A stretch of DNA of 64,000 bases, taken from contig JAAXCW010000001.1 of assembly GCA_013036095.1 (NCBI GenBank), positions 186,001-250,000 of the forward strand, written 5' to 3'. The notes below the pieces were generated by a model that was not told the DNA's origin, did not search any database, and saw nothing but the letters and a program-made list of their open reading frames with translations. The DNA is from Vulcanimicrobiota bacterium (GTDB lineage: Bacteria > Vulcanimicrobiota > Vulcanimicrobiia > Vulcanimicrobiales > Vulcanimicrobiaceae). Both the position numbers and the translations under genes were made by a program. Of this stretch, positions 7,084 through 11,926 are shown one piece after another (the first letter of the stretch is position 1; every line of letters starts with the position of its first letter).

Positions 7084-7707
7084 TTGTCGGAGCGCCGGCC
7101 TACCAGCCACGAACGGATGGCGGGACAATCGTGGGACGCTTCGTACCATGACGGCCCTGCGCCATGGGATATTGGCAGTCCGCAACCAGCGGTAGTGCGT
7201 TTGGCGTCGGCAGGCGGATTTGCGGGAGCTGTGCTCGATGCAGGCTGCGGCACTGGCGAAAACGCTCTGCACGTTGCGTCGCTCGGATTGTCCGTTCTTG
7301 GCGTAGATGTGGCTGAGACGGCATTGGCGATCGCTCGCAAAAAGGCAGACGACCGTGGGATCGAGGTTGAGTTCGCAGCAGCCGACGCGTTCGAACTGAA
7401 GCGTCTAGGGCGCAGCTTTGAGACGGTGCTCGACTGCGGATTGTTCCACACCTTCGATGCCGACGAGCGACCACGATACGTGGCGAGTCTGGCGCCGGTG
7501 ATGGAGCACGATGGAACTCTGTACGTTTTGTGCTTCAGTGACGGCGGCCCCGAAACCGGACCGCACCCCGTAAGTCAGGAAGATCTGAGAGCGGCGTTCA
7601 GCCACAGCAATGGCTGGGACATAGCCGCAATCGTTCCGGACCGGCTTCAGACGAGATTCCACGACGTCGGCGCACCGGCGTGGCTCGCAACAATCAAACG
7701 CAGCTAA
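7084..7707 (+). CDS. Class I SAM-dependent methyltransferase
   Basis: A 207-residue methyltransferase with motif I VLDAGCGTGENAL, motif II acidic strand VLGVDVAE, and a later motif FETVLDCGLFHTF. The substrate cannot be told; the overall pattern is like small-molecule (thiopurine-type) methyltransferases. I chose TTG 7084 because a GAAAGGA site sits 6-7 bases upstream. ATG 7117 is the alternative and would still keep the SAM fold intact. It follows directly on repeat copy 1 and its stop overlaps the convergent gene by four bases. Confidence 0.8.
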   Translation: MSERRPTSHERMAGQSWDASYHDGPAPWDIGSPQPAVVRLASAGGFAGAVLDAGCGTGENALHVASLGLSVLGVDVAETALAIARKKADDRGIEVEFAAADAFELKRLGRSFETVLDCGLFHTFDADERPRYVASLAPVMEHDGTLYVLCFSDGGPETGPHPVSQEDLRAAFSHSNGWDIAAIVPDRLQTRFHDVGAPAWLATIKRS

Positions 7708-8096
7708 ACTGCCGCCAGTAACTCCACGGTCAGCGGGTGCGTGAACGGCACTTCGCGCAAGTGGACAAGCGGCGTGAATGCCAAGTGGTTTTGATGGCAG
7801 TCGATCAGCATCTCAACGCCGCGTTTGCACGAACCCGTCTCCTCGATATACTTATTGAGCTTCTTCACGAAGTACGCGTGCGGATCGCGCAGCACTTTTG
7901 CGTAGTACGGATCGTCAGTCAAGCCTTGCGCCGAGATGCCTTCTTTGGGCACAAGCCAGACGAACCACGGATCTTCGCCGCTTCGGTAACCGATCAGGAC
8001 CAGAGGGATAGCTCGTGAAGAATCGAGCGCCGGAAGAAAACTGCACATCGTGTACGCATCGAAAGTAACTTCCTTCGGCTCGATCGCTTCCATCAA
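7704..8096 (-). CDS. Hypothetical cytosolic protein
   Basis: The 130-residue product is not recognised. It has no signal peptide or membrane helix. Aromatic- and proline-rich motifs (GYRSGEDPWFVWLVPKEG and DPHAYFVKKLNKYIEE) and two cysteines near the middle (ETGSCKRGVEMLIDC) are visible. Codon use matches neighbours. It converges with the methyltransferase with a 4-base overlap. A potential folded leader lies immediately before its ATG (8101-8148). Confidence 0.65.
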   Translation of the reverse strand: MMEAIEPKEVTFDAYTMCSFLPALDSSRAIPLVLIGYRSGEDPWFVWLVPKEGISAQGLTDDPYYAKVLRDPHAYFVKKLNKYIEETGSCKRGVEMLIDCHQNHLAFTPLVHLREVPFTHPLTVELLAAV

Positions 8097-8100
8097 TACC

Positions 8101-8148
8101 CCCTAAAAAGCAAAAACCGCCCGGCGCAGCGCGCCTGAACGGTTAGGG
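8101..8148. other. Segmented hairpin in a divergent gap
   Basis: CCCT (8101-8104), AACCG (8115-8119) and GGCGC (8123-8127) can pair with GCGCC (8131-8135), CGGTT (8140-8144) and AGGG (8145-8148). On the plus strand it is followed by ATCTTTT. It is directly upstream of the minus-strand gene ending at 7704 and about 95 bases before the ECF sigma start. Its role, whether terminator remnant or leader structure, is unclear. Confidence 0.3.
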
Positions 8149-8241
8149 ATCTTTTATGAACGCTTGGGGCGTCATGGCGGACGGGTTCGCCCAGCCCTAT
8201 GTGAAACCTTCGCCCTAGGCCGCGGTGTTTCGAAAGCGTAT

Positions 8242-8898
8242 ATGACCGCTCTCGCGCCGCTCCTGAGGGAGTACTGGGTGCCGGCTCCGGCACAAAAGAA
8301 AGCGGTGAAGCGGATCGGCGCTCCTGAGGCCGACCGCTTCGACAGCATCGTCGACGAATACGAGCGCCGGCTCTACGGCTTCGCCTTGCGCATGACCGGC
8401 AACCGCGAAGACGCCGAAGAGATCGTGCAAGATGCGTTTGTCCGCGCTTATCGCGCCCTTGCCAAAATGTCTCCCGAGCAGCGCGCCGAGTTGCGCCTGC
8501 AGCCGTGGCTCTACACCATCACTTTGAACGTCACGCGAAACCGCTTGCGTGGAAAGCGGCCGAGCAACGTCGCGCTTGACGCGCTGGCCGATCCCGACGC
8601 CCTGCTGCGCAGCTCCCGCCATGATGGCCCCGCGCAGCCCGAAAAAATCCTCGAACGAAACGCTGATATGGCGCTGGTGGAGCGGGCGCTCCTCCAACTC
8701 CCGATGCACCTTCGCGCCGCGGCCACGCTGCGGTTTATCGAAGGCCGCAGCCACCCCGAAATTGCTGAAATTCTCAACCAACCGATCGGAACGGTCAAAT
8801 CGCACGTGCACCGCGCAGTGCGCATTCTGCGCCGTATCCTCGGACCGCAAATCGGCAAAGTCGTGCCGGAAGGAGTCCCTGTCCATGCGATGTCGTGA
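8242..8898 (+). CDS. ECF-type RNA polymerase sigma factor
   Basis: The 218-residue protein contains sigma region 2 (FDSIVDEYERRLYGFALRMTG, then EDAEEIVQDAFVRAYRAL) and region 4 (ERALLQLPMHLRAAATLRFI, then IAEILNQPIGTVKSHVHRAVRILRR), with no region 3, which defines the ECF group. ATG 8242 is preferred because residues before it do not look like sigma sequence. The gene overlaps the downstream anti-sigma/AGT fusion by 14 bases, so the pair is probably co-translated. This is the canonical sigma/anti-sigma layout. The target regulon is inferred only through the partner: DNA alkylation damage is plausible. Confidence 0.92.
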   Translation: MTALAPLLREYWVPAPAQKKAVKRIGAPEADRFDSIVDEYERRLYGFALRMTGNREDAEEIVQDAFVRAYRALAKMSPEQRAELRLQPWLYTITLNVTRNRLRGKRPSNVALDALADPDALLRSSRHDGPAQPEKILERNADMALVERALLQLPMHLRAAATLRFIEGRSHPEIAEILNQPIGTVKSHVHRAVRILRRILGPQIGKVVPEGVPVHAMS

Positions 8899-9622
8899 AG
8901 TCGAAGCGCTGTGGGATGATATCCGCGAAGGAATGCCCCCGCTCCGCGCCGCCGTCCACACTCATCTGCGCGCGTGTCAACGCTGCCAGGATCTCTACGA
9001 ACAATACGAAGGCGTCGCTTACTGCCTGTCGTGCCTGCCGCAGCCCGAACCATCTTGCGATCTCGCCAAACGCGTGATCGAACACATTGCGACTCTGCAA
9101 AGCAAATACCGCGGCACGCCGATCGTCCTGACGTGGCTGCGCACGCAGATCGGACGCGTCTACGTTGGATACAAAGGCGACCGGATCGCGTTCATCGGCT
9201 TGGATCGCGGCGAAGGCCTCGAAAAAGTGCGCGAGCAGATCGAGCGCCGCTTGCACCGTCCCGTCGACAAGGGCCAAACTCCCACGTGGCTGCAAAAAAT
9301 CTTCGATGATTACTTCAAAACGTGGCGCGTTGACCAAAACAAAGTCGACATCACCGATCTGACGCCGTTCGAACAAGACGCGCTCAAAGCTGCCGCCAGC
9401 ATTCCGCCCGGTGAAGTGCGTTCGTACGCGTGGGTTGCGCAAACAATCGGCCGTCCGAAGGCGGCTCGTGCGGTCGGGCAGGCGATGGCGCGCAATCCGC
9501 TGCCGCTCTTCTTCCCGTGCCATCGCGTCGTCGATTCCCACGGCGAGCTGCACAATTACGGCTACGGAATCGAGATGAAGGCACGCTTGCTCAAGATGGA
9601 GGGCTATCGCCCGCAGCGCTGA
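8885..9622 (+). CDS. Zinc-finger anti-sigma domain fused to O6-alkylguanine-DNA alkyltransferase
   Basis: The 245-residue protein begins with a putative ZAS anti-sigma module: C3 and the HxxxCxxC motif H27-C31-C34 (HLRACQRC). Further cysteines at 47, 50 and 58 follow. From about residue 80 it is an AGT/Ogt: a small N-terminal domain (GRVYVGYKGDRIAFIGL), the winged-helix part LTPFEQDALKAAASIPPGEVRSY, arginine finger region RAVGQAMARNP and active site PCHRV with acceptor C212. The end NYGYGIEMKARLLKMEG is typical. The start at ATG 8885 has a strong GGAAGGAG site. Suicide alkylation of C212 could change the anti-sigma state, analogous to Ada where an AGT is fused to an activator. That function is inference; domains are seen. 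Confidence 0.88.
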   Translation: MRCREVEALWDDIREGMPPLRAAVHTHLRACQRCQDLYEQYEGVAYCLSCLPQPEPSCDLAKRVIEHIATLQSKYRGTPIVLTWLRTQIGRVYVGYKGDRIAFIGLDRGEGLEKVREQIERRLHRPVDKGQTPTWLQKIFDDYFKTWRVDQNKVDITDLTPFEQDALKAAASIPPGEVRSYAWVAQTIGRPKAARAVGQAMARNPLPLFFPCHRVVDSHGELHNYGYGIEMKARLLKMEGYRPQR

Positions 9623-9648
9623 ACGTCGCCTGAAATTAGTCCGCGGTT

Positions 9649-9816
9649 CCCTCAGAAATAGACGAACGAGGGCAAACAGCCGGACGGAGGAGGTGGTCAT
9701 CGTAAGTATCGATAGTCACAAACGTTTTCACACCATTACGATGAAAAGAGGTGCCGCCTCGTAGGCGGCAGCCAAGAACCACAAGTCCAGCCGGCTCGTA
9801 GGAGCCGGCTTTTTTT
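9649..9816 (+). ncRNA. Candidate structured RNA or leader with four tandem hairpins
   Basis: Four hairpins follow one another in a non-coding gap: CCCTC/GAGGG (9649-9653, 9668-9672), CATCGTAA/TTACGATG (9698-9705, 9736-9743), GCCGCCT/AGGCGGC (9753-9759, 9763-9769) and the terminator at 9789-9816. It could be a small RNA, the 3' end of the sigma/AGT transcript, or an attenuator leader of pcp. It matches no riboswitch consensus that I recognise. A 23-codon frame (GTG 9693) with GGAGG upstream overlaps it and could be a leader peptide. Confidence 0.5.
9789..9816 (+). terminator. Strong rho-independent terminator
   Basis: AGCCGGCTC (9789-9797), loop GTAG, GAGCCGGCT (9802-9810) and six T residues (9811-9816). 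A 9-bp perfect stem followed by T is a textbook intrinsic terminator. It lies only 19 bases before the pcp start, so it may also act as an attenuator. Confidence 0.85.
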
Positions 9817-9834
9817 CACCTAACCTTTTTAGCG

Positions 9835-10500
9835 GTGTCAAGTTCGGTTCTCGTGACGGGGTTCGAGCCGTTTGGCGGCAGCGACGTCAACCCCAGCGAA
9901 TTGGTCGCGCGCAGTCTGGAAGGGCGCCTCATCGCGGGGCGCCGCATCGTCGTGCGGGTTTTTCCGGTGGAAACGTCCGGCGTCGGCGACCGCTTACGCC
10001 AAGCATTTGAAGAGGAGCAGCCTGAGTTGGTCGTCTGCACGGGGCTCGCCGCCGGCCGCACCGCGGTCTCGCTAGAACGCGTCGCGGTGAACATGCTCGA
10101 CTTCGAGCAGCCCGATAATGCGGGTGAGGAGCGCACGAACGAGCCTATTCTGCGGGGCGGACCCGACGCGCGGCTCTCTCCCATGCCCATCGCCGAGATC
10201 GTCGACGCCTGGCAGCGCGAAGGCGTCCCGGGCTACGTCTCAAACTCGGCCGGCACCTATCTGTGCAATCAGATCTTATATGAGGCCCTCGGCATCGCCG
10301 AGTCGGTCTCGCCCCCGGTGACCGCCGGATTCATCCATCTGCCCTATCTCCCCGAGCAAGCCATTGCGGCCGGAGCTGGAAACAGTCCCTCGATGTCTCT
10401 GGAATTGATGAATCGCGCGATCGAACTGGCCATAGCCGCCACCATCCCCTCGATCGAAAGGCGCAACGCCGGCAGGCAAGCTGCGGCGGCCGGAGTCTAA
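9835..10500 (+). CDS. pcp: Pyrrolidone-carboxylate (pyroglutamyl) peptidase I
   Basis: This cytosolic C15 cysteine peptidase removes N-terminal pyroglutamate. The 221-residue protein has the diagnostic VLVTGFEPFGG start, the catalytic Glu region GLAAGRTAVSLERVAVN, the nucleophile in SNSAGTYLCNQILYEAL and the histidine in GFIHLPYLPEQ, completing the Glu-Cys-His triad. Length is normal for the family. The GTG start at 9835 has only a weak ribosome site, and a terminator lies just upstream, which fits attenuation or a very short leader. The PHP gene starts 11 bases after its stop. Confidence 0.93.
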   Translation: MSSSVLVTGFEPFGGSDVNPSELVARSLEGRLIAGRRIVVRVFPVETSGVGDRLRQAFEEEQPELVVCTGLAAGRTAVSLERVAVNMLDFEQPDNAGEERTNEPILRGGPDARLSPMPIAEIVDAWQREGVPGYVSNSAGTYLCNQILYEALGIAESVSPPVTAGFIHLPYLPEQAIAAGAGNSPSMSLELMNRAIELAIAATIPSIERRNAGRQAAAAGV

Positions 10501-10510
10501 GGAGAACAAT

Positions 10511-11926
10511 CTGAGCGACCCCCGCACCGCCGCCATCCCCGACGTTCACGGCCACGCTAAAGGCGAGCACAAACCGTTTGCCGAGGAACGTCCCATCGCA
10601 TACTCCGCACGTATGCTTTTCTTGTGGTTTTACCACGCGTGCCAGCGAGGATCGCCGCGCTTCCTGATGGTCTCCGACCATATCAACTACCTGACGTTCG
10701 AAGATCCGGGCGCGGTCAACACCGTCCGTCGCGCGCTGAAGCTGGCCGAAGCCGGCGACTTATACGGCGCGGCTGAAACCGCCGGCGTCGACGTCGCGCA
10801 CGCTGCCATCGTTTCCGAAGGCTTGCGCAAGGGCATGCGTTTTTCGATCGGCGCCGAGATCGACAACGATCCTCGCGCGCGCCCCGACGCGCAAAATATT
10901 GTCGACGCGATGAAGCCCGACGGCATGATCCGCTCGGTGCATTTTCTCACGATCGAACACCCGGAAAAGGGCGCCGACTGGTCGTGGCCTTTCGATAATC
11001 CCGAGTTCAAAGATCTCTTCGCCGTGGTCGGCACGCAAAAAGCGTGGGAGATGTACGTCGCCAAACTGATCGACGATATCGAGAAGCTGCCCGGACAGAT
11101 CGTCGCGCATATCTATGCGCCGGCGGTCTTCGGCAATTGGCCCGATATGAAACGGCTCGAGCAGTACGAAAACCGCGTGCTCGAAGCTTGTGTCGCGCGC
11201 GGCTTGGCAATCGAAATCAATACGCGATTCATTTACCGGGATAACCCGGCCGAACAAAAACAAAAATATCGCGACGCACTGTTGCGCCTCATGAAGAAAG
11301 CCAAGAACAAAGGTGTGGGGATTGCCGTCGGTTCGGACGCGCACAGCCCGAAAGATCAGGGCAGCGCCTTCGAGATCGTCCTCAAACTGCTCGACGAGGC
11401 GAAAATCAACGAGCTGGTCTTCCCGGTCGCGGGGCGGCTCGCGCGCGTCGCCCTGCGCGCCACCAAAGAACATCTACAAAAAGTGCTCTCGCGCGAACCC
11501 GCGGTTCAGGCTGGCAGCAGCATCAGCGGTTATGGACGCGCCGAGCTCGGCCTGCCCGAACGCAGCGAAGAGGAAGAGCGCATCCACCGCGGCGGACGCG
11601 TCAAGAAGGGGAAGAAGGCAGCCGTTGCGAGCAAACGCCTTGCGGCGCCGACGCGCATCGCCAAAAAGGCCGTGAAACCGCCGGCAAAAGCCGTGAAGGC
11701 CGCCGCGAAAAAGAAACCGGTCGTCAAAAAAGTTAGCCGCCCCGTGCTTAAGAAGGCCAAACCGGCGGCGAAGAAACCCGCGCCGAAAAAGCCAGCGGTC
11801 AAAAAAGCCGCGCCCAAGAAGAAAGCGGCCCCTAAGAAAGCCGCCAAAACTGCGCCCAAAAAACTTGCGGCCAAAAAAGCCGCGCCAAAGGCCAAAAAGA
11901 AAGCCCCAGTCCGCAAAAAACGTTAA
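10511..11926 (+). CDS. PHP-domain phosphoesterase with histone-H1-like basic tail
   Basis: The PHP metal motif DVHGHAKGEHKP lies upstream of the first ATG (10613), so translation must begin earlier. CTG 10511 has GGAGAA 5-10 bases before it and gives 471 residues. The PHP fold continues with MVSDHINYL, the HIYAPAVFGNW segment and GSDAHSPKDQG near the end. From about residue 361 the protein becomes a 110-residue Lys/Ala/Pro-rich tail (KKAAPKKKAAPKK type) like histone H1 or AlgP, probably DNA- or RNA-binding. The substrate is unknown. Runs of six A in the tail region could promote slippage. Confidence 0.8.
   Translation: MSDPRTAAIPDVHGHAKGEHKPFAEERPIAYSARMLFLWFYHACQRGSPRFLMVSDHINYLTFEDPGAVNTVRRALKLAEAGDLYGAAETAGVDVAHAAIVSEGLRKGMRFSIGAEIDNDPRARPDAQNIVDAMKPDGMIRSVHFLTIEHPEKGADWSWPFDNPEFKDLFAVVGTQKAWEMYVAKLIDDIEKLPGQIVAHIYAPAVFGNWPDMKRLEQYENRVLEACVARGLAIEINTRFIYRDNPAEQKQKYRDALLRLMKKAKNKGVGIAVGSDAHSPKDQGSAFEIVLKLLDEAKINELVFPVAGRLARVALRATKEHLQKVLSREPAVQAGSSISGYGRAELGLPERSEEEERIHRGGRVKKGKKAAVASKRLAAPTRIAKKAVKPPAKAVKAAAKKKPVVKKVSRPVLKKAKPAAKKPAPKKPAVKKAAPKKKAAPKKAAKTAPKKLAAKKAAPKAKKKAPVRKKR

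Follow-up and report, generated by a model that had tools for sequence, protein, structure and literature searches.

An ECF sigma factor gene overlapping a predicted zinc anti-sigma/O6-alkylguanine-DNA alkyltransferase fusion gene: a candidate alkylation-responsive switch

Here we describe a compact two-gene operon from a little-known soil lineage of bacteria, located on the plus strand at positions 8202-9820 of the window (the entire 64,000-nucleotide stretch of DNA that was analyzed), in which an ECF sigma factor gene overlaps a gene for a predicted fusion of a zinc anti-sigma (ZAS) domain and an O6-alkylguanine-DNA alkyltransferase (AGT) (Table 1). We consider it somewhat probable that this operon is a self-contained, alkylation-responsive switch that would operate in four steps. 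First, as suggested by the domain, the operon organization and their conservation, the ZAS domain of the fusion would bind and silence the sigma factor encoded by the overlapping gene. Second, judging from the conserved active site and the fold, the AGT domain would transfer the alkyl group of O6-alkylguanine irreversibly onto C212. Third, and this is the weakest step, alkylation would distort and destabilize the AGT domain, so that the fusion either loses the sigma factor or is degraded; irreversible alkylation of AGT that destabilizes the fold and leads to degradation is described in the consulted part of the literature (PMC4605297). Fourth, given the conserved promoter-like element, the free sigma factor would direct transcription from the TGAAAC...GGT promoter of its operon, whereupon the spent repair protein would be replaced and the sigma factor re-captured once unreacted fusion is again in excess. 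The anatomy of the locus and its conservation fit this plausible reading.

Table 1. Predicted features of the sigma-fusion operon (window coordinates)
Feature	Position	Strand	Remarks
Promoter-like element TGAAACC-N15-GGTGTT	8202-8229	+	ECF-type -35/-10, just 5' of the sigma gene
Shine-Dalgarno GGGAG serving GTG 8278	8267-8271	+	GGAG kept in relatives
ECF sigma gene	8278-8898	+	start GTG 8278 probable; frame also open from ATG 8242; PF04542, PF08281, TIGR02937
Predicted ZAS anti-sigma/O6-alkylguanine-DNA alkyltransferase fusion, 245 aa, ATG start	8885-9622	+	14-nt overlap with the sigma gene
Predicted ZAS (zinc anti-sigma) domain, residues 1-74	8885-9106	+	C3, H27, C31, C34, followed by a conserved YEGVAYC block and a fourth helix
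AGT domain, residues 78-241	9116-9607	+	PF01035, Foldseek, invariant residues
Codon of acceptor C212	9518-9520	+	within the AGT domain
Intrinsic terminator-like site, 3' of the operon	9789-9820	+	9-bp stem, T tail

The open reading frames and the Pfam matches agree with the original prediction that a sigma factor frame (8242-8898) and the frame of the fusion share 14 nucleotides, and the translation places C3, H27, C31, C34 and C212 of the fusion where that prediction had put them. The complete AGT claimed for the C-terminus of the fusion was likewise recovered (PF01035, E-value 2.1e-29, residues 161-240), with a score of 101.6 bits against a curated cut-off of 27. Regions 2 and 4 of the sigma factor were recognized by PF04542 (E-value 2.5e-16) and PF08281 (E-value 4e-14), respectively, and the TIGR02937 match scored 91.4 bits. 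The predicted sigma frame is indeed open throughout, but translation probably starts at GTG 8278 rather than at ATG 8242: all 34 distinct relatives have a GTG/TTG-type start in the sigma frame, whereas the equivalent of the ATG lies in another frame in two of these and is absent from the scanned stretch in two. A GGAG is found within 12 nucleotides upstream of the in-frame sigma start in 33 of the 34 relatives, and the remaining one (L022) has GGGGG.

Several smaller elements were observed in and around the operon. By eye, the leader between the promoter and the GTG start (8242-8280) is conserved and contains a CTCC...GGAG that could pair across the Shine-Dalgarno sequence; 12 nucleotides beyond the -10-like element, an in-frame ATG could either serve as a near-leaderless start or open an upstream reading frame. 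Six terminator-like sites were detected on both strands of the 7700-9900 region, compared to 3.3 in shuffled sequences. Upstream of the terminator listed in Table 1 lies a tiny open reading frame (9693-9764; VVIVSIDSHKRF..., 23 codons) behind a GGAGGAG, and a similar one is present in six close relatives (L005-L008, L030 and L052) out of 35 distinct loci scanned, counting that of the window. Farther along, at 10613-11926, a 437-codon open reading frame encodes a protein with a long, lysine/alanine/proline-rich, histone H1-like C-terminal tail.

The same architecture, which the original prediction suggested looking for, does occur in related genomes. When 149 genomes of the phylum were searched with a profile and the matches tallied by hand, the full-length fusion was present, among the matches listed, in 89 of the 99 genomes of the host family (Eremiobacterota) and in all four genomes of the sister family in the same order. 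The ten host-family genomes without the fusion among these matches are all less than 90% complete, and among the matches listed for the remaining 46 genomes of the phylum, none begins before profile position 74. These profile searches covered the host phylum and a few records; other phyla were covered by a single-sequence query, which, run against one genome per species for 84,980 species, returned 27 loci. All of these are labelled Eremiobacterota, Eremiobacteria or plain bacterium, with the exception of one Rhodospirillales-labelled contig (L028), which carries a ZAS-AGT pair of the Eremiobacterota type that falls inside that clade in the trees and is probably a mislabelled metagenome-assembled genome. 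In viral contigs, 22 stretches matched the search pattern, none of them a relative. When a plasmid collection was searched with tblastn, at least 80% of the fusion was covered in 12 of the 394 records; among the 15 records listed, loci L032 and L033 were inspected. In all 58 loci examined for it, which represent 35 distinct stretches, a same-strand sigma gene is located directly upstream of the fusion gene, so that the pairing cannot be a matter of chance, and the two genes overlap in every case, by 14 nucleotides in 57 loci and by 11 in L028.

The N-terminal motif is conserved in the homologs, a point on which the original prediction had been staked: C3, H27, C31 and C34, that is, the H-x3-C-x2-C motif with its upstream zinc ligand, are invariant, along with C212, in 24 of the 24 rows of an alignment (A1) that was chosen by tblastn without a motif filter. 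This conservation and the sigma neighbor rule out a chance motif. In a set of 46 distinct full-length proteins derived from 71 of the 90 scanned loci, columns with at least 97% identity number 23 in residues 1-70, 8 in residues 71-158 and 43 in residues 159-245; the invariance of C3 and of the EG.A block in this set is partly by construction, as the filter demanded M.C and EG.A. The 19 loci that failed this filter comprise 16 of the type with a C-terminal Ada_Zn domain described below (among which L103 and L107 are one and the same locus), together with the fragment L114, the class-mate L122, and L125, which is of the ZAS type but has a frame without the M.C beginning.

Profile comparisons identify the zinc module most likely as an anti-sigma domain, on the evidence of the family rather than of any single sequence. 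In the window's own fusion, the Pfam search for zf-HC2 (PF13490) gave no match even at an E-value of 1, and the NCBIfam anti-sigma models matched with E-values of 0.00025-0.0021, under their curated cut-offs; the ZAS label of this particular protein thus has more than the motif behind it, yet is weakly supported. Among the homologs, PF13490 matched at an E-value of 0.1 or lower in 14 of 24 (best 7.8e-5), and the N-termini matched the NCBIfam 'anti-sigma factor' at 0.01 or lower in 14 of 15 cases (best 1.5e-6) and the RsrA model at the same threshold in 8 of 15 (best 7.8e-5); in the divergent member L101, Pfam again found no zf-HC2. Compared with the PDB, the N-terminal profile retrieved RsiW (E-value 0.039), 3hug_B, which we take to be the anti-sigma factor RslA (0.57), and methionyl-tRNA synthetase (0.58); because the last two score nearly the same, RsiW alone stands out. 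AlphaFold2 places helices at residues 3-13, 20-30, 32-41 and 60-74 with low confidence (block means of pLDDT about 50-70), and three helices plus a fourth is the layout of anti-sigma domains. A structural proof of the ZAS assignment failed: the model is of low confidence, and the N-terminal domain modelled separately had no match in the PDB.

The AGT part looks active, as judged from its sequence and predicted fold. Y181, R195, N204, C212, H213, Y225 and E239 are invariant in all 46 distinct proteins, and the places of Y181, R195, N204, C212, H213 and E239 presumably correspond to Y114, R128, N137, C145, H146 and E172 of the human enzyme. Residues 159-242 align without gaps with the Mycobacterium tuberculosis OGT, and Foldseek gave TM-scores (target length) of 0.76 each to this protein (4wxd) and to the C-terminal part of Escherichia coli Ada (1sfe). 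The structure of an alkyltransferase-like protein (ATL), 3gva, was also among the matches to the AGT part.

A second build of the sigma-AGT pair was found outside the ZAS type. Through tblastn of the plasmid-collection records, we reached actinobacterial sigma-AGT loci in Nonomuraea (L032), on three Streptomyces plasmids (L033, L065 and L066) and in Rubrobacter (L064). The AGTs of these loci bear an Ada_Zn domain at the C-terminus (PF02805 in L032, P0004, P0007 and P0009; by eye in L066), and no ZAS core is visible in the four AGTs encoded separately from the sigma factor (L032, L033, L064 and L066). In L065 (2107-3453; P0009), on a plasmid of Streptomyces sp. NBC_00212, sigma region 4, AGT and Ada_Zn form one polypeptide of 448 aa, in which sigma region 2 has no Pfam match. 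A further AGT gene follows the pair in the three Streptomyces plasmid loci. Within their aligned parts, both proteins of the Nonomuraea pair match those of the window at 38%. Among 30 loci of Eremiobacterota, 15 encode a sigma factor with an AGT-Ada_Zn-like protein, 13 encode ZAS-AGT with a sigma factor, and two have no sigma gene (L114, cut at the contig end, and L122); Ada_Zn was scored with Pfam in L103 (the same place as L107) and judged by C-x3-C...C-x2-C in the rest. In L112, L113, L115-L121 and L128, the Ada_Zn domain appears by eye to be degenerate, with the C-x3-C and C-x2-C pairs kept. A gene for a PF09859 DNA-repair oxygenase (E-value 3.5e-75) lies behind the pair in L103; a search for a second gene behind the 15 pairs of this type by longest reading frame, with Pfam scoring for L103, gave nothing usable elsewhere. 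The helix that precedes AGT in the Ada_Zn type aligns with helix four of the ZAS type, a correspondence that is suggestive only. Because the Ada_Zn-type relatives have no ZAS core, the mode of holding the sigma factor would differ between the two builds.

With moderate support, the two builds group together in the trees of both proteins, and the sigma-AGT pairs likely share a common origin. In a tree of 47 sigma factors, those paired with AGT are separated from 14 other ECF sigma factors of the host at 95/68 (UFBoot/SH-aLRT), which is under the program's 95/80 mark, and the ZAS-linked ones form a clade at 100/100. This tree is without L065, L069 and L072 (short), one duplicate, and the host loci L067, L080, L086 and L087, which were missed by a seed profile built from sigma-AGT sigmas; six of the 20 other sigma-like loci of the host are not in it. 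When the ECF sigma factors of the host were ranked, that of the window was the best match of the Nonomuraea sigma, narrowly (85.1 vs 80.5 bits), and also of the Streptomyces (98.6 vs 82.8) and Rubrobacter (73.6 vs 61.6) sigmas. In a tree of 47 AGT domains, which is without L102 (short), one duplicate and the short AGT-like loci L003 and L004 of the host, a branch supported at 98/87 unites all ZAS and Ada_Zn types with two unlinked class-mate AGTs (L104 and L106), and ZAS-AGT forms a clade at 99/98.

The two builds bear on the main rival explanation, namely, that the zinc cysteines could do the sensing: electrophiles, methylating agents or oxidants would modify the cysteines of the ZAS site and free the sigma factor, and AGT would be a co-delivered repair enzyme. 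The consulted part of a review (PMC8999054) describes ZAS proteins responsive to oxidative stress, and the fusion has spare thiols, with C47 kept in 45 and C50 in 41 of the 46 distinct proteins. We nevertheless regard this explanation as unlikely, because sigma-AGT pairs recur without the ZAS core, and in these the signal must be carried by AGT or Ada_Zn; the checked active-site residues of AGT are, moreover, invariant in the full-length homologs. The constancy of sigma factor and AGT, against an accessory domain that is either ZAS or Ada_Zn, points to AGT as the sensor, as in the proposed alkylation-responsive switch.

If AGT is the sensor, it might still act by binding DNA or DNA damage rather than by alkyl transfer, such that damaged DNA would pull the fusion off the sigma factor. 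Alkyltransferase-like proteins bind damage without alkyl transfer, one of them is the 3gva match mentioned above, and the DNA-binding residues of AGT are conserved in the fusion. The invariance of C212 in 46 of 46 distinct proteins is unnecessary for mere binding, and we rate this mode of sensing as decidedly improbable; transfer onto C212 is the reading that we retain.

The promoter-like element upstream of the sigma gene is a probable autoregulation site. The pattern [TC]GAAAC-(15-19)-(G/T)(G/T)T(T/C) is present before the sigma gene in 32 of the 34 distinct upstream regions, compared to 0.2% in mononucleotide shuffles, a control that overstates the significance because the sequences are related and because the pattern was widened after inspection of the sequences, an earlier, stricter one having matched 18 of 32 regions. 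Before the sigma genes of the 15 Ada_Zn-type loci, no similar motif was found with the pattern used. The host genome contains a single TGAAACC-(14-17)-GTKTT site, which lies at the operon, and likewise a single hit of the reversed control. Across the genus, the exact site is present at the operon in seven of seven genomes, and there are seven one-mismatch sites elsewhere, compared to 17 for the reversed control. In the 99 genomes of the host family, a scan for the GTGGTC form returned 17 sites, vs 1 for the reversed control; its absence from 82 of the 99 genomes says little because this pattern misses the GGTGTT form. By coordinates, 15 of these 17 sites lie just upstream of a sigma-fusion pair, and the other two are inside long reading frames that by eye resemble gapA (L138) and mreB (L154). 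A wider regulon was therefore rejected, no promoter-like site beyond the operon rising above the control in the host, genus and family scans. Most simply, the operon would be autoregulated, with few if any targets besides itself, of which degenerate ones may be missed; exact sites elsewhere at no more than chance level suggest a repair switch that induces itself and whose regulon is very small.

The regulon scans and the weak ZAS scores of the window's own protein would also suit the absence of any switch, with a sigma factor that autoregulates on another signal and a ZAS-AGT protein that is a repair enzyme with a vestigial or structural zinc finger, but we give this little credence, given that the N-terminus is better conserved than the N-subdomain of AGT and that gene order and overlap are fixed (14 nucleotides in 57 of 58 loci).

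As a candidate damage-to-sigma circuit, the operon resembles known systems in part. RsrA is a soluble ZAS anti-sigma factor. Other soluble ZAS anti-sigma factors, ChrR and RshA, share with the fusion an N-terminal H-x3-C-x2-C zinc module encoded beside an ECF sigma gene, and ChrR, in addition, has a separate C-terminal sensor domain, a cupin, so that an anti-sigma factor with ZAS and a sensor in one chain is workable, going by the part of the review that covers these proteins (PMC8999054). The fusion differs from them in that its C-terminal domain is a suicide DNA-repair enzyme and in that it would respond to DNA alkylation rather than to oxidants.

Among bacterial sensors of DNA alkylation, the textbook example is Ada, an activator that binds DNA. 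In Ada of E. coli, AGT is both the repair enzyme and the sensor, and expression is autoregulated, as we propose for the fusion. Unlike Ada, the fusion has neither Ada_Zn (PF02805) nor an AraC-type HTH in Pfam searches, and its output would be the release of a sigma factor, as opposed to DNA binding by methylated Ada. Membership in the Ada family was rejected, since the fusion has no PF02805 or HTH match and the host genome has no PF02805; Ada_Zn gave no match in the host or in the six other genomes of the genus (seven of seven searched). In lineages such as this genus, the switch would be the likely adaptive response. The second AGT of the host (L001, 742-1755) combines an AraC-type HTH with AGT, has no Ada_Zn match, and is possibly another alkylation regulator. 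Were a sigma factor restrained by a suicide repair enzyme, a DNA lesion would have a second, chemically direct path to RNA polymerase, and a single molecule would combine repair, sensing and shut-off; an easily built two-gene alkylation reporter would follow.

The closest published counterpart is ECF122, a group of ECF sigma factors encoded beside 6-O-methylguanine DNA methyltransferases, for example, in Cellulomonas sp. Root930, which the consulted part of the review describes as having no cognate anti-sigma factor and an unknown mechanism (PMC8999054). The original claim that no such example had been described does not stand for a sigma gene beside an AGT gene, given ECF122 and the sigma-AGT-Ada_Zn loci in actinobacteria and in the same phylum; of the ZAS-AGT fusion itself, our literature search, covering its sources in part, found no published description. 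That search returned no other paper that we recognized as dealing with such a system. Like ECF122, the locus in the window pairs an ECF sigma gene with an AGT gene; unlike the fusion, which has ZAS and no Ada_Zn, the actinobacterial AGTs, likened to ECF122 by neighbor and phylum rather than by the ECF122 profile, end in an Ada_Zn domain and have no ZAS core. Tentatively, with a confidence that falls a little short of even, we suggest that sigma-AGT pairs constitute a single family of switches that directly link DNA alkylation to a sigma factor and come in two builds, the ECF122-like AGT-Ada_Zn and ZAS-AGT, and that, in the latter, each methyl group taken from DNA would inactivate one inhibitor and free one sigma factor, so that lesions would be counted by stoichiometry. 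If so, the switch could explain ECF122: its methyltransferase neighbors would be the missing anti-sigma factors, and the helix before AGT may be the sigma contact in the AGT-Ada_Zn build.
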